Shown: in pieces, positions 5,413 through 32,615 of the stretch
Layout: the number at the start of each line of letters is the position of its first letter
How positions within the stretch are numbered: position 1 is the first letter of the stretch
Assembly: GCF_000336935.1 (NCBI RefSeq)
Contig: NZ_AOME01000029.1
Span: 3,038-35,670 of the forward strand
From: Halococcus salifodinae DSM 8989
GTDB lineage: Archaea; Halobacteriota; Halobacteria; Halobacteriales; Halococcaceae
Length of the DNA stretch: 32,633 nt
Reading direction: 5' to 3'
The notes under the pieces: generated by a model
Seen by the model: the letters and a program-made list of their open reading frames with translations, nothing else
The model's database searches: none
Told to the model about the DNA's origin: nothing
Program-made: the position numbers and the translations under genes

Positions 5413-5940
5413 ATGAGAAGTATGACTGGATCGGGCGAGAAATTAGTCGGTGTTGATCCGGAGCAGTTGCGCCAGCAACTGCGAACGGAAACGGATGCGA
5501 AGGCCACCAAGCAGCTCACTGTTGCACTCCTCTACGACGCTGGATTCTCGCCATACATCATCGAAAACTTCCTCGGCTTTCCTGCTCAGACCGCCTACGG
5601 CTGGTTGGACACAGTCGCCGAGCGCGATGTCACCGCGCTCGGCGACGCTCCACGACCCGGACGCCCATCGTACCTCTCGCCCGAGCAGTGGGACCAGCTC
5701 ACCGCGACTCTTCAGGCACCGCCGTCAGAGGTTGACGTCGACGCACCAGCCTGGAAACCGCCGCTCGTCCAAGAGTACATCGTCGAGAATTTCGGCGTTG
5801 AGTACTCGCTCGCGCACGTTTATCGCATGATGCACAAGGCCGGGCTGTCAGTTCAGACAGCCCGGCCGATCGCCTATCAGGCCGACCCAGAAGAACAGCG
5901 ACACTGGCGCGAGGAGTTCAAAAAAAGTGGCCGACGCTGA
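5413..5940 (+). CDS. IS630-family transposase, N-terminal part (frame A)
   Basis: The 175 residues form the helix-turn-helix, DNA-binding half of an IS630 transposase. They include FSPYIIENFLGF-QTAYGWLD (helix-turn-helix), a GRPSYLSPEQWDQL linker and a second winged segment (VENFGVEYSLAHVYRMMHKAGL). The frame ends at TGA 5938-5940, just after an A7 run at 5920-5926. Continuing one base back at that run joins the sequence smoothly to the catalytic half (FKKKWPTLKANDYRIVAIDQ). The start may be 5413 or the in-frame ATG at 5422, which lies 22-30 nt after an AT-rich stretch. Frames A and B together give about 343 residues, the normal family length. Confidence 0.88.
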   Translation: MRSMTGSGEKLVGVDPEQLRQQLRTETDAKATKQLTVALLYDAGFSPYIIENFLGFPAQTAYGWLDTVAERDVTALGDAPRPGRPSYLSPEQWDQLTATLQAPPSEVDVDAPAWKPPLVQEYIVENFGVEYSLAHVYRMMHKAGLSVQTARPIAYQADPEEQRHWREEFKKSGRR

Positions 5941-6440
5941 AGGCTAACGACTATCGAATCGTCGCGATCGATCAGCACTCCGAAGCGGTCGCAACCAATC
6001 AAAAGTCCGATTGGTTCCCGGTGAACTCGCGCCCGAGACTGCCGGTCTCGGGCGCTCGCGGGAAGGTGAACATGCTCGGAGCCGTCACTGACGACGGCGA
6101 ACGGTTCGTGGCTCTCACACCGAATCAGTTCAATGCAGAGGTCGCGAAACACTTCCTCCGAGCGATACAGCACGAGTTCGGCGAGAGGCTCGTAATCGTG
6201 CTGGACAACGCGAGCTACTTCATCGCGAAGACACTGAAGAAGCAGGCCGCCGCGGACGGCCTGCTTCTGGAATACCTGCCGTCACATTCACCCGAGATGA
6301 ATCCGCTCGAAAACTGCTGGCGGCAGCTTCGAGAAGGCCGGGCCAACCGATTGTTCCGCACGCTCGCCGATGTCAACGAGTACCTCTCAACAGCGCTGCC
6401 AGCGCTCAACTCGCCGCAAGTCTACGAGTATCTCTGCTAA
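5925..6440 (+). CDS. IS630-family transposase, catalytic part (frame B, -1 relative to A)
   Basis: Reached by a -1 shift at the A7 run 5920-5926; the overlap with frame A is 16 bases. It carries the DDE catalytic triad: Asp in RIVAIDQHSEA, Asp in LVIVLDNASYF, and Glu in LPSHSPEMNPLENCW, the diagnostic IS630 block. No internal ATG sits at its beginning (the first is at 6072, within the domain), so it would be made only as a fusion with frame A. The shift is either programmed (ribosomal or transcriptional slippage on A7) or a one-base lesion. The intact remainder and the slippery tract favour the former, but this is inference. Confidence 0.85.
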   Translation, partial: KWPTLKANDYRIVAIDQHSEAVATNQKSDWFPVNSRPRLPVSGARGKVNMLGAVTDDGERFVALTPNQFNAEVAKHFLRAIQHEFGERLVIVLDNASYFIAKTLKKQAAADGLLLEYLPSHSPEMNPLENCWRQLREGRANRLFRTLADVNEYLSTALPALNSPQVYEYLC

Positions 6441-8216: not shown

Positions 8217-9248
8217 TCACTCGACGACGTGTTCGGGCGTCTCCCCGTCGAGGTAGTCGTCGAGCTGGCCGGCGATGATTCGCGGCCCGCCGAGCACCGC
8301 GTCCCGAGTCGACCCGGCGACGTGGGGGGTGAGGACGACCTCGTCTCGGTCGAAGAGGGGGTGGTCCACGGGGAGCGGCTCCTCCTGGAACACGTCGATC
8401 GCCGCGCCGCCGAGTTCGTCGTTCTCGAGCGCCGCAACCAGCGCTTCCTCGTCGACGAGGCCGCCCCGAGCGGTGTTGATCAGGTACGCCGAGGGTTTCA
8501 TCCGCTGGAACTCCTCGCGGCCCATCATCCCCTCGGTGTCGCGCGACAGCCTGACGTGGAGCGTCACGGCGTCGGACTCGGCCAGCAGCGTCTCCAGGTC
8601 GGCCGGCTCCGGACCCGCCTCGCGGATCTCGTCGTCGTCGACGAACGGGTCGTACGCTAGAATCTCGGGGTCGAACCCGGCGAGCCGGCGGGCGACCCCC
8701 CGGCCGATGTGGCCGAAGCCGACGACCCCGACCGTCGTCGTCCGGACGTCCGGCGGGAGCCGGTCGGGGTCGAACACTTGGTTCCACTCCCCCGCGGAGA
8801 GCTCCGCGTGGTTGAACGGGATCTCCCGAAGCCGCGAGAGCAGCATCGAGACGGCGTAGTCGGCGACGGCGTCGCGGTTGCGGCCGGGGGCGTGGAGCAC
8901 AGTAACGCCGTTGTCGGCGGCGGCCTCGACGTCGACGTTCTCCGTGCCGCCGCGGGCGGCGCCGACGAGCTCCAGCGAGTCCGCCCCGTCGATCAGCTCT
9001 CGGGAGACGGGTGCCTTGTGGACGACCAGCGCGTCCACCCCGTCGAGCTCGGCGGCGATCGCGCCCGTGTCGTAGCTCCCCGGGCCGGCCGACTCCATAT
9101 CCATCGTCACGTTCCGGAACTCGGCGGGTGAGGCGTCGCCCATCCAGTCCATCCGGTCGAACGCCACCCCTCGCTCCTCGAGGCCCTCGAGCGCCTCGTA
9201 CATGTACTCGCTCGGCTGCTGTGGGTCCCCGCACAGTAAGACCTTCAT
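8217..9248 (-). CDS. D-isomer-specific 2-hydroxyacid dehydrogenase
   Basis: NAD(P)-dependent dehydrogenase of 343 residues, in the phosphoglycerate/glyoxylate/D-lactate dehydrogenase family. The Rossmann motif GFGHIG is at about 177-182. The substrate-binding loop is near residue 99 (AARGGTENVD), and the catalytic triad is Arg260 (NTARGGLVDE), Glu289 (DVFQEEP) and His309 (LTPHVAGST). The start ATG at 9248 sits 5 bases after the kinase stop, so the gene is the last of the minus-strand operon that begins at 13291. Context suggests that it oxidises or reduces a small 2-hydroxy/2-oxo acid, or a sugar acid, made by the preceding kinase and aldolase. The exact substrate is unknown. Confidence 0.9.
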   Translation of the reverse strand: MKVLLCGDPQQPSEYMYEALEGLEERGVAFDRMDWMGDASPAEFRNVTMDMESAGPGSYDTGAIAAELDGVDALVVHKAPVSRELIDGADSLELVGAARGGTENVDVEAAADNGVTVLHAPGRNRDAVADYAVSMLLSRLREIPFNHAELSAGEWNQVFDPDRLPPDVRTTTVGVVGFGHIGRGVARRLAGFDPEILAYDPFVDDDEIREAGPEPADLETLLAESDAVTLHVRLSRDTEGMMGREEFQRMKPSAYLINTARGGLVDEEALVAALENDELGGAAIDVFQEEPLPVDHPLFDRDEVVLTPHVAGSTRDAVLGGPRIIAGQLDDYLDGETPEHVVE

Positions 9249-9253
9249 TCGAT

Positions 9254-10831
9254 TCAATCCTCCCGCCTGAAGGTCTTGAGCGTTTCCCAGGGTACTTCCA
9301 TCCCGTCGACGGCTTGGTCGAACGCCTCGGAGACGCGTCGGTAGGCGGCGACCGCCGCCGAGTCCGGCTCGTACGATTGGGCGGTTCCGACCGCCCGGTC
9401 GACCGCCGTCGCTGCGTCCGGGTAGACGCCCGCGGCCGTCCCCCCGCACAGCGCCGCCCCGAGCGCACCGGTCTCGCGTGCGTCCGGGACCGTCACCGGG
9501 GCGTCGGCGACATCGGCGAACAGCTTCGACCAGGCGTCGCTCTGTGCGCCGCCGCCCGTCAACCGGATCGTCCCGACCGCGGGCGTGAGGGTGTCGAGCG
9601 CCCCAGTCTGGGTTATCGCGACCCCCTCGTAGATCGCCCGGAGCATGTGCGCGCTCGTATGCGAGAGCCGGAGCCCGTAGAACCCGCCGGCGCTGCTCGG
9701 GTCGTCAGTCGACCCCTGCAGGAACGGGTGGAAGACGAGCCCGTCCGCACCCGGGTCGACCCCCGCGACCGCCTCCTCGTACACCTCGTACGGGTCGACC
9801 CCACGCTCGCACGCCTCCCGGCGCCAGTCGCCGCCACACCGGTCGACGAACCAGTCGACGCAGGCCGCCCCCGCCCTGATACCTCGGTAGCGGTACCAGC
9901 CGTCGAGGTACCGCCGGAGCAGGCCGCCCGCGCCGTCGTCCGGCGAGTCGAGCACCGCGACGCTCTGGCCCCACGTCCCGAGGATGGCGAGTCCGTCGCC
10001 CGGCTCGACCAGTCCCGCGCCGAAAGTGCACGCGCCGACGTCCTGTAGCCCGGCGGCGACGGGGGTCCCCTCGGGGAGTCCGGTGTCGGCGGCGGCCTCG
10101 ACCGTCATCGCCCCACAGGACTCGGTGCTCGGGATGACCGGTGGCAACGCCTTGAACGCCGCCTCGATGCCGAGTGCGGCGAACGCCTCCCGGTCGTACG
10201 CGGCGTTCGGGCCGTAGAAGACGCTCCCCTCGGTCGGGTCCGTGACGCGCTCGCCGGTAAGCCGGTGGGTGAGCACGTCCTTGCAGAACAGGAGCGTGTC
10301 GAGGCGGTCGTACGTCGCCGGCTCGTTGGCCCGAAGCCACACGAGGAGGCTCAGCGGGTCCGCGCCGAACGGCTCCCAGCCGAGACGGTCGACGGCGCGC
10401 TCGCGGGCCCCCTCGGCGCAGTGCTCGTCGAGGGCGTCGAGCGCCCGGCTGTCGGTAGACTTGATTCCGCAGACCGGCTCGCCCGCCGCGTCCAACCCGT
10501 AGAGACCGTGGCCGTGGCCGGCGACGCCCACGCCGGCGACGGCGTCGGTCGGGACGTCGTCGCTCCCGACGACCGCCCCGACCGTCTCCGCGACGACCGC
10601 CCACAGGCGGTCGTGGTCCTGCTCCTCGCGGTCGGCCGCCGCTCCCTCGCTCGCGTCGACGCCCCCGTTCGCGGTTCCCCCGGTCCCCCCGGCTTCCCCG
10701 GCCGCGCCGTCCGGCTCCGACCGCGGCGTCGACCGCGACGCGGCCGCGAGCTCGGTTCCGTCGGGGTCGTAGGCGGCGACCGTGACGTTGGTGAGTCCGG
10801 CGTCGACCCCGACGAGCACGTTCTCCGTCAT
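9254..10831 (-). CDS. FGGY-family carbohydrate kinase
   Basis: ATP-dependent sugar, polyol or sugar-acid kinase of 525 residues. The actin-like N-terminal phosphate-binding strand is VLVGVDAGLTNVTVAAYD. The catalytic Asp lies in AGLQDVGACTFGAG, and the C-terminal signature is IRLTGGGAQSDAWSKLFAD followed by ETGALGAAL. Residues of about 35-75 form a haloarchaeal low-complexity acidic insert (SEPDGAAGEAGGTGGTANGG region) where relatives have a short substrate loop, so substrate assignment by similarity is unsafe. The ATG at 10829-10831 overlaps the aldolase stop by four bases (ATGA), indicating translational coupling. A kinase followed by a class II aldolase is the usual arrangement for a ketose phosphorylated and then split to dihydroxyacetone phosphate and an aldehyde. 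Confidence 0.9.
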   Translation of the reverse strand: MTENVLVGVDAGLTNVTVAAYDPDGTELAAASRSTPRSEPDGAAGEAGGTGGTANGGVDASEGAAADREEQDHDRLWAVVAETVGAVVGSDDVPTDAVAGVGVAGHGHGLYGLDAAGEPVCGIKSTDSRALDALDEHCAEGARERAVDRLGWEPFGADPLSLLVWLRANEPATYDRLDTLLFCKDVLTHRLTGERVTDPTEGSVFYGPNAAYDREAFAALGIEAAFKALPPVIPSTESCGAMTVEAAADTGLPEGTPVAAGLQDVGACTFGAGLVEPGDGLAILGTWGQSVAVLDSPDDGAGGLLRRYLDGWYRYRGIRAGAACVDWFVDRCGGDWRREACERGVDPYEVYEEAVAGVDPGADGLVFHPFLQGSTDDPSSAGGFYGLRLSHTSAHMLRAIYEGVAITQTGALDTLTPAVGTIRLTGGGAQSDAWSKLFADVADAPVTVPDARETGALGAALCGGTAAGVYPDAATAVDRAVGTAQSYEPDSAAVAAYRRVSEAFDQAVDGMEVPWETLKTFRRED

Positions 10832-11832
10832 CGGTCCGCCCGGCGCGACTCGCCGGCGCTCCCGGTGAGTTCGCACAGCCCCGCCATCACGTCGGCGATC
10901 CGGTCTCGGGCCGCGTTCGAGACGACGTGCGGGTGGAAGTACGTCTTGTCGGGCCCCCAGTCGGCCTCGGCGAAGAAGCCCGCCCGGTCGTCGGCGACGC
11001 CGTCCGGGGGTCGGACCGCGTCGGCGTGCTCGCGGTAGAAGTCCGCCGCGGTCCGTGCGTACTCGTACTGGTACCGGGTGTTCTTGTTGAACTTGACGAC
11101 CCCGGCGTCGAGGAGTGCCGCCAACTGCTCGTCGGCGAGCCCCGAGGCGCCGTGGACGACGAGAAACGCGTCCGACCCGGCGTCGGCGAGCGCCCGGCCG
11201 ATGTCGGCCGCAACGTCGGGTCGGACGTCGAGGTCGCGGCCGGAGGCGACGCCGTGCTGGGTGCCGACCGATACCGCGAGGAGGTCACAGCCCGTCCGCT
11301 CGACGAACTCGACCGCGTCGTCCGCGTCGGTGTAGAACGCCTCGTCGTCCGGTGTCTTCGTGCTTCCCTCGACGCCGGCGATGCGGCCCAGTTCGGCCTC
11401 GACGAAGACCTCCCCGGCGGCGTGCTCGACCGCCTCACGGGTGAGTTCGACGTTGCGCTCGAACGGCTCGGCGGAGGCGTCGACCATCACGGAGTTGGGG
11501 ACGCCCGAGTCGAGACATGCCTCCAAGAAGTCAGCGTCCTCGGGGAGGTGGACGTGATCGACGTTGCAGAAGGTCTCGATGTCGAAGCGCGCCCCGAACG
11601 CGTCCAGACAGTCGCCGAAGACGCGGAGCCCAACGGTCGGGTCGCCGTCGCCGAAGAAGGCTGCCTCTTCGCGACCGAGCTGGACGACAAGGTCTGAGTC
11701 GGTGCGGTCGCTCCCTCGTAGCAGTCCGACGAGCACGTCGAAGTGGGTGACGTTGCTGGCGAAGAACCCGTGGCCGCCCTCCCGGGCCCGCTCGTACAGC
11801 TTCCGGAGGCCGACGCCCGCACGGTGTGACAT
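10828..11832 (-). CDS. Class II fructose-bisphosphate-type aldolase
   Basis: Zinc-dependent aldolase of 334 residues, in the Fba/GatY/KbaY family. Recognisable blocks are FASNVTHFDVLVGLLRG at the N-terminus, Asp92-His93 in NVDHVHL (catalytic Asp and zinc His) and VEAELGRIAGVEG with the conserved Glu. His193 is in GTQHG, His227 in VVHGASG, and VKFNKNT is the phosphate/Asn loop. All zinc ligands therefore appear present. Divergence in the loops makes fructose-1,6-bisphosphate an uncertain substrate. Immediate coupling to an FGGY kinase suggests cleavage of a ketose phosphate or keto-acid phosphate to dihydroxyacetone phosphate. The ATG at 11832 has its own TATA-like box 25-32 nt upstream. Confidence 0.88.
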   Translation of the reverse strand: MSHRAGVGLRKLYERAREGGHGFFASNVTHFDVLVGLLRGSDRTDSDLVVQLGREEAAFFGDGDPTVGLRVFGDCLDAFGARFDIETFCNVDHVHLPEDADFLEACLDSGVPNSVMVDASAEPFERNVELTREAVEHAAGEVFVEAELGRIAGVEGSTKTPDDEAFYTDADDAVEFVERTGCDLLAVSVGTQHGVASGRDLDVRPDVAADIGRALADAGSDAFLVVHGASGLADEQLAALLDAGVVKFNKNTRYQYEYARTAADFYREHADAVRPPDGVADDRAGFFAEADWGPDKTYFHPHVVSNAARDRIADVMAGLCELTGSAGESRRADR

Positions 11833-11835
11833 ACG

Positions 11836-12171
11836 CTACCTGACGGGACAGTGCCGATTAATTCTACCGGAACGACGCGACGGCATCCCGGGGGTCGCAC
11901 CGACGAGGCGAACGCGGTGGGCGTCGCCGCCGCTCAGGTCGTACTCCGCTTCGAAGCACCGTCGGACGGAGACGACCGATCCCGCCTCGGTACCCTGGGT
12001 GATGGTCTCGTACTCCGCCAGCGCCGCCACGACCGTCTGCGTCCTGCCCCGCGACGGTTTGATCTCGCTCGTGTCCGTGGTGTCCGCTGTCGCCTCTCGG
12101 GCGGTCGAACGACCGCCTCGCGCACGGTTCGCGTGGTTGTCACCCACGGGTACGGCCGTCCGCGGCCCCAC
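11836..12171 (-). CDS. Small uncharacterised ORF inside the KARI-aldolase operon
   Basis: A 111-codon open frame starting with GTG 7 bases after the KARI-like stop and ending 3 bases before the aldolase ATG. Spacing and strong GC at third positions (until the last dozen codons) suggest real coding sequence. The product is polar, with a helical middle (QTVVAALAEYETITQGTEAG) and a strand-like CFEAEYDLSGGDAHRVRLVG. I recognise no family. It could be a true small subunit, or the remnant of a larger gene, since the N-terminal 30 residues look non-conserved. The last codons overlap the probable promoter of the aldolase, which weakens the case for the extreme C-terminus. Confidence 0.4.
   Translation of the reverse strand: MGPRTAVPVGDNHANRARGGRSTAREATADTTDTSEIKPSRGRTQTVVAALAEYETITQGTEAGSVVSVRRCFEAEYDLSGGDAHRVRLVGATPGMPSRRSGRINRHCPVR
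11857..11864 (-). promoter_or_regulatory. TATA-like box upstream of the aldolase
   Basis: AATTAATC on the minus strand, 25-32 nt upstream of the aldolase ATG at 11832, is the only AT-rich octamer in the neighbourhood. It suggests that the aldolase-kinase-dehydrogenase genes can be transcribed independently of the KARI-like gene. Confidence 0.5.
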
Positions 12172-12178
12172 TGGACGG

Positions 12179-13291
12179 CTACTCCTCCCGGAGACCGAAC
12201 GCGTCGAGCGTCGTCTGCTCAGTCTCGACGAACGCGGAGTTCTCGTACTGCCGGCGGAGGCGGTCCAATCGGGAGTCTTCTGCCGCCTGCTCCTGAGTCC
12301 ACTCCTCGGCGAACTCCCCGGATTCGATCGCTGCCAGGCGTTCGCGCATGAACTCGCGGATCGGTTCGCGGTCGAACGCCTCCAGTCCGAGCAGCTGGCC
12401 GTACTGGCTCGTCCGCGAGTGGAGGTCCATCTGCGCGACCAACCCCTCGGTCGCGCACTTCTCGAAGATGTGGGCCATCTCGCGGGAAAGGTACGACTCG
12501 AGCAGCGTCACCTCCGGCGGGACCCCCGCCTCGGACTCCACCTCGAAGCGGGCGAGCAGCGCGGCGGCGAACACCGGGAACAGCCCCTGTTCGCTCAGCA
12601 GGTCCGTGCGCGTCTCCGTCTCGAAGTCAGTCTCGACGACGCCCGAGCGGGTGCTCCCGATGCCGGCCGCGACGGCCAACGCCCGACTCTTCGCCTCGCC
12701 CGTGGCGTCCCGGTGGACGGCTAGCAGCGCGGGCGCGCCCCGGCCCGCCTCGTACAGCTCGCGCACTACTGCCCCGATCATGCGGGGCGCGACGAGTGCC
12801 ACGTCGACTGCCGGATCGACCTCGACGTACCCGTAGGTAACGTTGTAGCCGGAGGCAAACACGAGCGCGTCGCCAGGACCGAGATTCGGCTCGACCGTCC
12901 GTTCGTACACTTCTGGCTGGACCTCGTCGGGGACCAGGAAGAGCACGACGTCCGCCCGGGCCGTCGCCTCGGCCATCGGGTAGGCGTCGAAGCCATCCTC
13001 GCGGGCCTGCTCCCGAGAGTCGTCCGCACGGTTCCCGATCACGACCTCGAGCCCCGCGTCGCGCATATTTGACGCCTGCGACCGCCCTTGGTTCCCGTAA
13101 CCGAGGACGGCGACGGTATCGCCATCGAGCGGGTCGGTGCTCGCGTCAGTCTCGTGGTAGACGGTGGCCGACGCCGTCGTCGACGTCGCCGTCAGTTCCG
13201 GGTCTGTCGAATTCGTTCCTCCATCCGCCGAATCGGAAGCCGTCGACTGTCCCCTCGCGTCGCTGTCGCCGTCGTCGTCCGTCGAGTCCAT
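12179..13291 (-). CDS. Ketol-acid reductoisomerase-like oxidoreductase with altered active site
   Basis: The 370-residue protein has a D/S/T/G-rich extension (residues 1-50), then a Rossmann domain with VAVLGYGNQGRSQASNMRDAG (nucleotide motif at 64-69). A KARI knotted C-terminal domain follows (about 215-335: STRSGVVETDFETETRTD onward). Mg-binding Asp230 and Glu234 (TDLLSEQ) and Glu265 are kept. Aligned from memory with IlvC, the catalytic His of the FAHGFN-type motif is Ser147 (FASGYN), the Lys of VAPKGPG is Arg170 (VAPRMIG), and the second Glu of FECLHE is Ser269. This makes ordinary acetolactate isomeroreduction unlikely. It heads an operon with an aldolase, a kinase and a hydroxyacid dehydrogenase rather than branched-chain amino-acid genes. 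I infer a redox isomerisation of a sugar-acid-like ketol acid; the substrate is unknown. Confidence 0.82.
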   Translation of the reverse strand: MDSTDDDGDSDARGQSTASDSADGGTNSTDPELTATSTTASATVYHETDASTDPLDGDTVAVLGYGNQGRSQASNMRDAGLEVVIGNRADDSREQAREDGFDAYPMAEATARADVVLFLVPDEVQPEVYERTVEPNLGPGDALVFASGYNVTYGYVEVDPAVDVALVAPRMIGAVVRELYEAGRGAPALLAVHRDATGEAKSRALAVAAGIGSTRSGVVETDFETETRTDLLSEQGLFPVFAAALLARFEVESEAGVPPEVTLLESYLSREMAHIFEKCATEGLVAQMDLHSRTSQYGQLLGLEAFDREPIREFMRERLAAIESGEFAEEWTQEQAAEDSRLDRLRRQYENSAFVETEQTTLDAFGLREE

Positions 13292-13321: not shown

Positions 13322-13453
13322 GTTGGCTCGACCGGGGGGCCTGAGCTGTTGTCGATACGACCGGCCCGCGTGCTGGTTCACCGCGACCCTCGAGGAGTGA
13401 GGGAACGCGCTGTCGGAGACAGAACTAAGCGGCCACACCTGCGATCCACTCCC

Positions 13454-14776
13454 ATGGTCGAACTCGACGTACCCGACGCAGAGACGCTTGCGGACGTCAA
13501 CGACGTCAGCATCGGCGACTTCCCCCGCCTCGCCTACGCCGAACGCCGCCGGGACTCGCCTCGGGTCGACGACGTCTCCGCGGCGACTCGCGACGCGATC
13601 GGGGATATCCCCGCCCTGACCGACCTCGACGAGGGTGCCGAGGTGGCCGTCACAGCCGGGAGCCGCGGCATCCACGACATGCCCGAACTGATTGAGGCGG
13701 TCGTCGCCGAGCTTTCGGAGCGCGGGCTGGATCCCTTCGTCATGCCGGCGATGGGGAGTCACGGCGGCGCGACGCCGGGGGGGCAGCGCGACGTCCTGGA
13801 GGGGTACGGGATCACCGAGGAGCGACTGGGCTGTGAGATCCGCGATTCGATGGCCGTCGAGCCCGTCGCCGAGGACTCAGAGGGACGTCCGATCCCGGTG
13901 TCGAGGGTCGCCCTAGAGGCCGACGCGGTGCTCGTCGCCAACCGGGTGAAGCTCCACACCGACTTTCGCAACGAGGTGGAGTCCGGGCTGACGAAGATGA
14001 CCGTCGTCGGCCTCGGCAAGCAGCGCGGGGCAGAAGAGATGCACAACGCCGCCATCTCCCGCGGGCTCGATACCGTGATTCAGGAACGCGCCGACGCCAT
14101 CTTCGAGCACGCCCCTGTCGTCGGCGGGATCGCGCTCGTCGAGAACGCGAACGACCGCGCCGCGCTGATTGAGGGCGTCCCGGTCGGAGAGATCTCCGAC
14201 CGCGAGCCCGAACTGCTCGCCCGCTCGAAGATGCTGTTCGGCGAACTCCCGGTCGACCACCTCGACCTGCTCGTCGTCGACGAGATCGGGAAGGACGTCT
14301 CCGGCACCGGGATGGACACCAACGTGATCGGCCGCTACCAGTTCCTCAACGAGGAGGAGCCCGCCCTGCCCGACATCACGCGGATCTACGCCCGCGACGT
14401 CACCGACGCCTCCCACGGCAACGGGATCGGGATGGGGCTCGCGGACTTCGTCCACGAGGACCTCGTCGTACAGTTGAACCTCTCGGACACCTACGTGAAC
14501 GCCGTGACCAGCGGCGAGTCCTCCCGCGCGTTCGTCCCGATCGTCTCGCCGAGCGACCGGACTGCGCTGCTGCTGGCGTACTCTATTACGGGCGTCCGCG
14601 ACCCCGAAGACCTCCGTATCGGCTACGTCCGGAGCACGCTCCACCCGGACGAGCTGTACGTCTCCGACCCCGTCGCCGACGAACTGGCGGAGTGCGACGA
14701 CGTCGACGTCGGGGAGCGCCGGGAGATAGAGTTCGACGACGCGGGCGACTTCGTATTCGGGTTCGAAGGTCGATAG
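13454..14776 (+). CDS. LarA-family (DUF2088) racemase/epimerase-like protein
   Basis: A 440-residue relative of the nickel-pincer lactate racemase LarA. The N-terminal Lar_N-type domain contains VTAGSRGIHDMPELI and MGSHGGATPGG (His103, corresponding to the first catalytic His region of LarA). A later RVKLHTDF...ESGLTKMTVVGLGKQ block provides candidate His168 and Lys181/Lys189. LarA homologues racemise or epimerise 2-hydroxyacids, including sugar acids, using a cofactor made by LarB/C/E; no lar biosynthesis gene is in this window. The ATG at 13454 is chosen over an upstream in-frame Met at 13349 because conserved sequence begins here. It is divergent from the KARI-like operon, which suggests a shared 2-hydroxyacid theme. 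The substrate is unknown. Confidence 0.8.
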   Translation: MVELDVPDAETLADVNDVSIGDFPRLAYAERRRDSPRVDDVSAATRDAIGDIPALTDLDEGAEVAVTAGSRGIHDMPELIEAVVAELSERGLDPFVMPAMGSHGGATPGGQRDVLEGYGITEERLGCEIRDSMAVEPVAEDSEGRPIPVSRVALEADAVLVANRVKLHTDFRNEVESGLTKMTVVGLGKQRGAEEMHNAAISRGLDTVIQERADAIFEHAPVVGGIALVENANDRAALIEGVPVGEISDREPELLARSKMLFGELPVDHLDLLVVDEIGKDVSGTGMDTNVIGRYQFLNEEEPALPDITRIYARDVTDASHGNGIGMGLADFVHEDLVVQLNLSDTYVNAVTSGESSRAFVPIVSPSDRTALLLAYSITGVRDPEDLRIGYVRSTLHPDELYVSDPVADELAECDDVDVGERREIEFDDAGDFVFGFEGR

Positions 14777-24908: not shown

Positions 24909-25543
24909 TCAGTCCAGATTCACGGCCGAATCGTACGACGACACCGCCGCGGCCGACGGCTCGTCGGTCTCGACGTCGACGACGGGGGCGGCGAACTCGG
25001 CCTCCAGGATGCCGCTCGGGACGCCCAATCTGACCGGCCCGGTCGGCGGCGTCAGCGCCGTCTCCACCCCGCATGCGACCTCGGTGGGTAGGTCGCGCCG
25101 GCGCTCGACGTTGACGTTCGCCTTGACGACCTCGTCGTAGGTGTCGGGATCGATCTCGTGGATCGGCCCCTTCCCGCGCTCGTCGGGGTCGACGTTGGCG
25201 GAGACATGGAGGATCGGCACCGGGTCCTCGTAGGCGTTCTTCAGGCCGTGCATCGCGTTGGTGTCGCCCGGTCCGGGGACGGTGAGCGTCGCCGCCGGCC
25301 GGCCGCCTCGTAGTACCCCCACGCGATGTGCGGGACGGCGGTCTCGTGGCGGGCCATCACGTAGCGCATCTCGTCGTGCTCGACGACCGTCCGGTCGAGC
25401 GGGAGCGTCTGCGTCCCCGGGATGCCGATCAGCGTGTCGACGCCGGCGTCGACGAGCGCCTCGTACACGTGGTTGCCGCCCGTCCTCGCCGTCCGGCCGG
25501 CGTCGCTCCCCACGGTATCGGTGTCAGTGTCGGCGTCAGTCAT
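24909..25543 (-). pseudogene. Truncated, frameshifted ThDP-dependent enzyme (acetolactate synthase type)
   Basis: The start at 25543 (MTDADTDTDTVG) leads into a ThDP-binding PYR domain: GNHVYEALVDAGVDTLIGIPG, then the conserved Glu in ARHETAVPHIAWGYYEA. Near 25291-25305 the frame shifts by one base, and the continuation VPGPGDTNAMHGLKNAYED runs in another frame. It ends at 24909 after GVPSGILEAEF and a non-conserved tail. The central and C-terminal ThDP domains (about 350 residues) are absent. A stand-alone PYR subunit as in sulfopyruvate decarboxylase is the alternative, but the frameshift and the missing partner argue for a relic. The original substrate was probably a 2-oxo acid. Confidence 0.78.
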
Positions 25544-25804
25544 GCACACACCGACCGACCCCACCGGATTAGCCTTTTCCCCGTCGCAAGTCGCCGCCCG
25601 AGCGCTCCGCCACTCCCGGTCACCGCTCGCCGACTGTTTCGGACTGTCGCCATCCGCTGACGGCCCCACTCGCCGACGGTGTTCGAGGGACAGGTGCCGG
25701 AACACGCAGCGGCGACGCCGGGGTCGAGCGAGGACCGACCGTCGCGCTAACGGCCGAGTCGTTCCGGGCCAGAGCGCCGCGGCGGCCGTCCGCGCCGGAG
25801 GGTT

Positions 25805-25889
25805 CTGCAGCAGCGTCTGCAACTGTTTGCAGATCCGACCGCACGAGACGTGCGGTCGAGCGTGTCATGATTTGCAGACGCTACTACAG
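25805..25889. mobile_element. MITE copy 2, diverged
   Basis: The left end CTGCAGCAGCGTCTGCAA and the inverted right end CTGTAGTAGCGTCTGCAA pair over 18 bases with two mismatches. The perfect 10-bp central stem CGACCGCACG/CGTGCGGTCG (25836-25845 with 25849-25858) is identical to copy 1 at 7954-8033, but the loop is AGA instead of TCGT. The flanking TA dinucleotides are no longer visible, so this copy is older. It occupies part of the 412-base gap 25544-25955, in which I see no gene. Confidence 0.75.
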
Positions 25890-31806: not shown

Positions 31807-32615
31807 CTAAAGTTCGCCTCTGGTAGCCTCCACTGAGAGGTCACAGCTTATTGATGTTTTGGTCGAACGCTGGAGCAGCTCGTGCTTGAACGCCTGATAC
31901 TGCTCAGGGTTGGCGTAGTCTACGAGGCGCAACTGAAGTAACGCCTCTAATCCGGCTGCTGACCACCGCATCCACTGATTCTTGCACCGCTTCGAGACCT
32001 CTCCCATCGCCCGTTCGACCGGGTTCGAGGTCCACGGCACCTCGAACCCATCCACAGCCTCCTCAGCGAACAGCATCATCGATGGAAGCCACCTCCGCAG
32101 ATACGTTGCGGTTTTCGGCGACGAGAGTTGATCCAGTTGCCACGCGAGATGGCGGATACGCTGTTTCGTGGTGGCGATCCGCTCGCGGATCGCCGCCCAC
32201 TCCTCGTTTGGACGATGCTTCTCGACCGAATTCTTCAGGTGAAAGAGATCGTTTGAGACCTCCGAGACGATCTGGTTGCGCTCTTCGAGGCAGAACGCAC
32301 CGTCTTCCCAGAGTTTGTAGCTGGTCGTCCGAGGCACGTGGACTAGATCGAGTTGGTGCAGGCGGTCTTCGGTGGTGAACGCCTCGGTGAGTCCCTCCTC
32401 GGCGTCACTGACGACCCTCGCGTCGTCAGTGACCGCCTCGATCTCGTCGAGTGCGGTAGCAGTGTCGTCCCAGGCGTTGTCGACCGAGACGTCCAAGAGG
32501 GTGGTTGCGTCGTCTTCGTCTTGGCCGAGTGTGACGTGGACGTCGTTGTAGGCGGTGGCGTCGTCCTGACTGTGGCACTTGGTTCCATCAGCGAGAACTG
32601 TGTCGGCGTTCGTCC
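31807..32615 (-). CDS. ISH6-like transposase, 5' end missing at contig end
   Basis: The frame is open from the adapter junction (32615) to a stop at 31807, at least 268 codons. The product starts TNADTVLADGTKCHSQDD and continues through VVSDAEEGLTEAFTTEDRLH and VPWTSNPVERAMGEVSKRCK to a basic, Trp-rich end. These resemble the catalytic region of ISH6-type haloarchaeal transposases; the family name is from memory and moderately sure. The annotated-looking TTG start at 32496 is not real, because coding sequence continues upstream. A small hairpin GGGTGT-AAGA-ACACCC (31761-31776) lies beyond the stop and may be near the element end; the terminal repeat cannot be confirmed without the other end. 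Confidence 0.75.

Follow-up and report, generated by a model that had tools for sequence, protein, structure and literature searches.

A ketol-acid reductoisomerase homologue of Halococcus salifodinae belongs to a deep subfamily that may act in sugar-acid catabolism

The window analyzed here is a stretch of 32,633 nucleotides from Halococcus salifodinae DSM 8989 (contig NZ_AOME01000029.1, positions 3,038 to 35,670), and all positions below are counted from its first letter. A gene for a ketol-acid reductoisomerase (KARI)-like protein of 370 amino acids lies at 12179–13291 on the minus strand and begins with an ATG codon. The plus strand over the same positions contains stops and no open frame, so the intact frame described in an earlier note on this DNA, which named no strand, is the minus-strand one. 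Pfam analysis of the 370-aa protein showed matches to KARI_N (8e-60) and KARI_C (1.5e-24). The NCBIfam model TIGR00465 (ilvC) gave 259 bits, above its cut-off of 226, and 435 bits for the canonical KARI of the same genome; with the tighter model PRK05479 the 370-aa protein scored 287 bits, below the cut-off of 336. In an AF2 model (pLDDT 92), residues 1–40 form a disordered extension and residues 41–370, mostly above 90, adopt the KARI fold. Fold comparison (VIA) returned Z values of 37–39 against most class I KARIs and 39.5 against BurG. The protein thus carries a Rossmann N-domain and a knotted KARI C-domain in a single chain, as in the class I KARI fold family (PF07991 plus PF01450), and the earlier description of a KARI homologue with a retained fold was supported, as was that of an intact nucleotide motif (GYGNQGR against the canonical GYGSQGH). 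Furthermore, the dN/dS ratio between close relatives was 0.12–0.25, which indicates purifying selection and excludes a dead gene.

The KARI-like gene is the first of a same-strand run, in agreement with its earlier placement at the head of an operon. It is followed on the minus strand by a small ORF of about 100 aa (11836–12171) with no Pfam match, a class II (fructose-bisphosphate-type) aldolase (10828–11832; NF041368, 543 bits, cut-off 500), an FGGY-family carbohydrate kinase (9254–10876; PF00370/PF02782) and a D-2-hydroxyacid dehydrogenase family protein (8217–9449; PF00389/PF02826). The true start of the kinase is probably nearer 10830, and its best NCBIfam model, xylulokinase, scored below cut-off; the dehydrogenase probably starts near 9250 and fell below cut-off with both the PGDH and the glyoxylate reductase models. 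Divergently, on the plus strand, lies a nickel-pincer-nucleotide (NPN)-dependent isomerase of group 22 (13349–14776, likely start 13454; NF052515, 474 bits, cut-off 400). Outside H. salifodinae the full operon of this type was found only in Halobium salinum, which has an equivalent layout with a similar 102-aa ORF in the matching position. The genome of H. salifodinae contains four group-22 NPN isomerases (contigs C28, C29, C30 and C100), which weakens the local link between the KARI-like gene and its divergent neighbour.

Positions 1648–31723 of the window form a sugar-acid catabolic island with four enolase-superfamily enzymes, two DHDPS-family proteins, a UxuA-type dehydratase, an HpcH/HpaI aldolase, LUD-domain proteins, a Zn alcohol dehydrogenase and an MFS transporter. 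An apparent remnant of a thiamine-pyrophosphate enzyme, in two frames and with its N-terminal domain only partly left, was observed at 24909–25822. Transposase-like ORFs flank parts of the island: one at 5413–6440 is split into two halves in different frames, and further possible ones lie at 898–1566 and 31807–32496.

A collection scan over the genomes of 84,980 species yielded 220 relatives, 80 of which were kept, and a MAFFT alignment was built from 129 sequences, comprising 91 members of the subfamily described below and 38 canonical KARIs. One sequence reading GPRMIG had been labelled canonical by the script and was reassigned to the subfamily to give 91; the script-labelled clade has 90. 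The apparent invariance of N67 and E123 arises partly from scan patterns that contained both residues and was excluded as evidence. Where the canonical KARI of the same genome reads FAHGFN and APKSPG, the 370-aa protein reads FASGYN (12842–12859, minus) and APRMIG (12773–12790, minus). The catalytic His and Lys expected of IlvC (EC 1.1.1.86; FAHGFN, APKxPG) are therefore replaced by Ser147 and Arg170, confirming two of the substitutions proposed earlier, the latter given there as VAPRMIG. Arg170 was found in 91/91 subfamily members and Lys in 38/38 canonical KARIs. Position 147 is labile: it is Ser in 74 members, His in 15 and Thr in 2, and this column changed 8 times across the whole tree.

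The third proposed substitution, Ser269 for the second Glu of FECLHE, proved to be a slip of ungapped alignment. At 12479–12499 (minus) the subfamily reads LESYLSREM against FECL--NEM in canonical KARIs, a two-residue insertion (Leu268-Ser269) that places Glu265 at the first Glu and Glu271, two residues after Ser269, at the second. Glu was present at both positions in all sequences (Glu271 in 129/129), HMMER comparison with canonical chains put the gap in the same place, and the helix of the AF2 model is interrupted right at the insertion (helices 259–268 and 271–282). Loss of the second Glu was thus excluded. The other two predicted metal ligands, Asp230 and Glu234 (12590–12604, minus), already noted as intact, were likewise invariant in 129/129 sequences. 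By this alignment all four acidic Mg ligands are present and the predicted metal site is complete, so that of the changed acid/base set first proposed, the changes at 147 and 170 are real and that at the second Glu is not.

Two further regions depart from canonical KARIs. The motif Gln287...His291-Ser292-x-Thr294 (12410–12433, minus) corresponds to a canonical M...V/I-S-D/N-T, with hydrophobic residues at the positions of Gln287 and His291, and the nucleotide-specificity loop (residues 86–90, G-N87-R-A-D90; 13022–13036, minus) replaces a GLRE-like loop. Asp90 was found in 90/90 members of the script-labelled clade, and position 87 was Asn or Ser in 86/90. Arg170, the insertion with Ser269, Gln287 and His291 were each fixed in 91/91 subfamily members and occurred in 0/38 canonical KARIs. 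Ser147 was rejected as a hallmark because it interchanges with His; as judged from the alignment, Arg170 and the insertion serve better for recognizing the subfamily.

In the tree, the split between subfamily and canonical KARIs received an SH-aLRT of 100. A clade sharing Ser/Arg/Ser, as looked for in the earlier note, was thus recovered as a deep clade in which Arg170 and Ser269 are fixed and Ser147 is not. The KARI of Saccharolobus solfataricus (Sso-KARI) also fell within the subfamily, although its branch is long. A KARI from a Methanopyri archaeon bin, with SHGYN but APKGPG and no insertion, branches off basally on the canonical side. Subfamily members occur in over a dozen phyla of Bacteria and Archaea, including haloarchaea, Asgard and other archaea as well as Bacillota, Actinomycetota, Myxococcota, Pseudomonadota, Chloroflexota, Binatota, Hydrogenedentota, Spirochaetota, Armatimonadota and others, and such fixation across phyla excludes convergent substitutions in one strain. 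Within the Halobacteria the distribution is rare and patchy (12/292 sampled genomes). The 370-aa protein has Arg170, the insertion, Gln287, His291, the Asn/Ser-x-x-Asp loop and a position within the clade, and these comparisons strongly support its membership in a deep, old and widespread subfamily of class I KARI homologues.

A second KARI match, with 34–42% identity to the 370-aa protein, was found in 35/38 sampled genomes that have a subfamily member; two of the three genomes with a single match are Lokiarchaeota bins. In the haloarchaeal sample, each of the 12 genomes with a member gave two KARI matches. In H. salifodinae, the canonical KARI lies in an ilvB-KARI-leuC-leuD-leuB cluster, with gene names assigned from position and sequence. 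IlvB, LeuB, LeuC and LeuD of this cluster were used as protein queries. None was found near subfamily members (0/81 loci), whereas the identical queries matched near canonical KARIs at 5–8/21 loci. The 370-aa protein is neither the sole KARI of its genome nor placed among ilv/leu genes, as would be expected of IlvC, and we concluded that the subfamily member does not replace IlvC.

Neighbourhoods of subfamily genes were then compared, with a codon-usage caller for gene calls at GC-rich loci. Many of the genes were accompanied by permeases of the gluconate type, nickel-pincer 2-hydroxyacid isomerases, kinases of acid sugars or dehydratases of sugar acids. At least one acid-sugar marker (NPN/LarA isomerases, DUF1537 kinases, PdxA2, GntP, FGGY) occurred near 22/81 subfamily loci, and the same markers were found at 0/21 canonical loci; none of the six markers tested was present at the other 59/81. 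The pairing of a KARI-like gene with an NPN isomerase recurs in other phyla, the two genes lying 30–90 bp apart on the same strand in an actinobacterium and in an Aerophobetes bin. Lachnospiraceae showed a GntR-KARI-GntP arrangement, Oscillospiraceae LarA-type racemases, several haloarchaea and an actinobacterium a DUF1537 kinase and a PdxA-type dehydrogenase, and Rhodobacterales TRAP transporters. On annotated plasmids of Halomarina and Haladaptatus the subfamily gene adjoins sugar ABC transporters and enolase-superfamily enzymes, and on one of Sulfitobacter it belongs to a GntR/TRAP/aldehyde dehydrogenase/glycerate kinase group. No metabolic neighbours were seen beside two other copies on Haladaptatus plasmids. 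In several Clostridia (L060, L068, L075 and L076) the KARI-like gene comes straight after the genes for a glycyl radical enzyme and its activase, and at some of these loci it is itself followed by a molybdopterin oxidoreductase gene. As neighbourhoods vary widely from phylum to phylum, one substrate common to the whole subfamily is unlikely.

From these sequence facts we infer cofactor, direction, migration and substrate as follows. Intact metal ligands, together with Gln and His in place of hydrophobic residues near the substrate Ser, are most simply read as signs of an NAD-linked enzyme whose substrate is a 2,3-dihydroxy acid of higher polarity. BurG, a KARI homologue dependent on NAD+, uses two Mg ions to oxidize a 2,3-dihydroxy acid at C-alpha, and its residues Asn48 and Asp51 exclude NADP+ (PMC9359912). 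In an ungapped match to residues 16–85 of BurG, N87 and D90 of the 370-aa protein fall on these two selectors, which makes NAD use likely. The deep split with its fixed diagnostic residues supports a class distinct from IlvC, and the near-constant second KARI together with the absence of ilv/leu genes nearby supports a different role. The acid-sugar markers, NPN pairs and plasmid contexts point to sugar-acid catabolism, and purifying selection to a functional enzyme. We therefore consider it moderately probable that the 370-aa protein is an NAD-linked, two-Mg oxidoreductase or oxidoisomerase that takes part in the catabolism of sugar acids by acting on hydroxylated 2,3-dihydroxy acids, and not a branched-chain enzyme. 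In the enzyme, two Mg ions would hold such an acid, or the corresponding 2-hydroxy-3-oxo isomer, as a chelate, and hydride would pass between its C2 and NAD(H), probably as an oxidation of the substrate. The C3 substituent may or may not migrate; migration would be reverse KARI chemistry, as in D-apionate oxidoisomerase. The nickel-pincer isomerase in the same genome would supply the right C2 epimer, the FGGY kinase would phosphorylate, the class II aldolase would cleave, and the 2-hydroxyacid dehydrogenase would finish the product. Only tentatively can the proposal be extended to the whole subfamily, whose members would then oxidize branched or polyhydroxy acids derived from sugars with NAD+ while a substituent migrates, in many cases after a nickel-pincer C2-epimerase has prepared the substrate.

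Loss of alkyl migration along with His and Lys could instead have left a pure NAD(H)-dependent 2-hydroxyacid dehydrogenase or 2-ketoacid reductase. Active-site mutants of E. coli KARI studied by Tyagi and others reportedly can keep ketoacid reduction while isomerization is lost, and a glycerate kinase lies beside the subfamily gene in Sulfitobacter. The E232Q variant of BurG, too, still reduces hydroxypyruvate with NADH (PMC9359912). However, a simple dehydrogenase would not need the four acidic metal ligands that are always kept, nor does it fit the retention of His147 in some members, and we regard this reading as unlikely. A BurG-like enzyme that makes or uses an unusual specialized metabolite through a hidden redox cycle would agree with the fold comparison, where BurG is one of the closest structures (Z 39.5), and with the common Asn-x-x-Asp NAD loop. 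Yet transporters and genes of sugar-acid catabolism are what lies nearby, and the Glu265–His291 segment had no match in BurG at E<10 while Sso-KARI was matched; the chain numbering of BurG in the fold comparison hints at the two-residue insertion in BurG, which the segment match does not support. Such a role appears very improbable.

It is also conceivable that the protein is a second, condition-specific but ordinary valine/isoleucine KARI in which the replacements of His and Lys are neutral. The KARI Pfam matches, a TIGR00465 score above cut-off and a full set of metal ligands in the sequence agree with this. So do the PDB deposits of Sso-KARI (6jcv series), in which the protein, entered as a KARI, binds Mg, either NADPH or NADH, and CPD, a KARI inhibitor; this enzyme is reported to be active as a KARI on acetolactate and bispecific for NADH and NADPH. 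Against it stand the second KARI in 35/38 genomes, 81 loci with none of the tested branched-chain genes and with sugar-acid neighbours among them, and diagnostic residues whose fixation is unlike drift; we judge it quite improbable. Nevertheless, the Sso-KARI complexes and reported activity make residual acetolactate activity of the 370-aa protein quite possible, and the bispecificity suggests that an NAD-only reading may be too strong. Returning to the sugar-acid reading, the earlier suggestion of a new reaction or substrate in a living gene was upheld in outline, in that selection is purifying, a separate canonical KARI exists and the deep clade occurs in sugar-acid contexts. Its argument was overstated, since only two of the three changes are real, the set of metal ligands is complete, Ser and His interchange, and Sso-KARI has the same Ser/Arg/insertion set.

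The residue combination is already known from the PDB entries of Sso-KARI. Its role as the mark of a large subfamily of its own, with a catabolic context, appears to be unrecognized; no paper describing this subfamily as distinct was found in the open-access literature. Plasmid records name its genes ilvC, with valine/isoleucine GO terms. As the TIGR00465 cut-off is also passed, many such genes would have been wrongly assigned to branched-chain synthesis if our reading is true, and these labels would mislead metabolic models. Sso-KARI, studied for its dual use of NADH and NADPH, may then belong to a different physiological class. With a defined clade, a solved structure, a clear gene context and partner enzymes, the substrate question is directly testable.

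Among known systems, canonical class I KARI (IlvC; 4tsk, 8ep7 and the H. salifodinae enzyme) shares the fold (VIA Z 37–39), the two-Mg ligands and the substrate Ser/Thr. It differs in its His and Lys, the lack of the insertion, Met and Val/Ile in place of Gln and His, and a GLRE-like loop, and the H. salifodinae enzyme also in its ilv/leu neighbours. Sso-KARI, annotated as 'putative ketol-acid reductoisomerase 2', is 40–44% identical to the 370-aa protein and shares FASGYN, APRMVG, the two-residue insertion with the second Glu, QM..HSTTSQYG and the GN..D loop; it differs in coming from a thermophile, in its long branch and in being treated as a branched-chain KARI. In the breakdown of sugar acids, D-apionate oxidoisomerase (ApnO) uses NAD+ on a hydroxylated dihydroxyisovalerate analogue, in what is formally the reverse of the KARI reaction. 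We take it to be of a different family, with a PF16896-type C-terminal domain. PF16896 had no match in the 370-aa protein at E<0.001, so that ApnO membership is unsupported by Pfam; in a whole-genome PF16896 search no positive control gave a match. ApnO is listed as EC 1.1.1.421 (PMC11747546). One LarA homologue racemizes 2,3-dihydroxyisovalerate, the KARI product, very slowly (PMC11770544), which makes a link between a nickel-pincer epimerase and a KARI-type acid chemically reasonable. Finally, BurG (7pcc series) shares with the 370-aa protein the KARI fold, two Mg, the Asn-x-x-Asp NAD loop and coexistence with IlvC, but it serves a specialized-metabolite pathway with a zwitterionic dihydroxy-acid substrate, whereas the neighbours identified for the 370-aa protein are catabolic.
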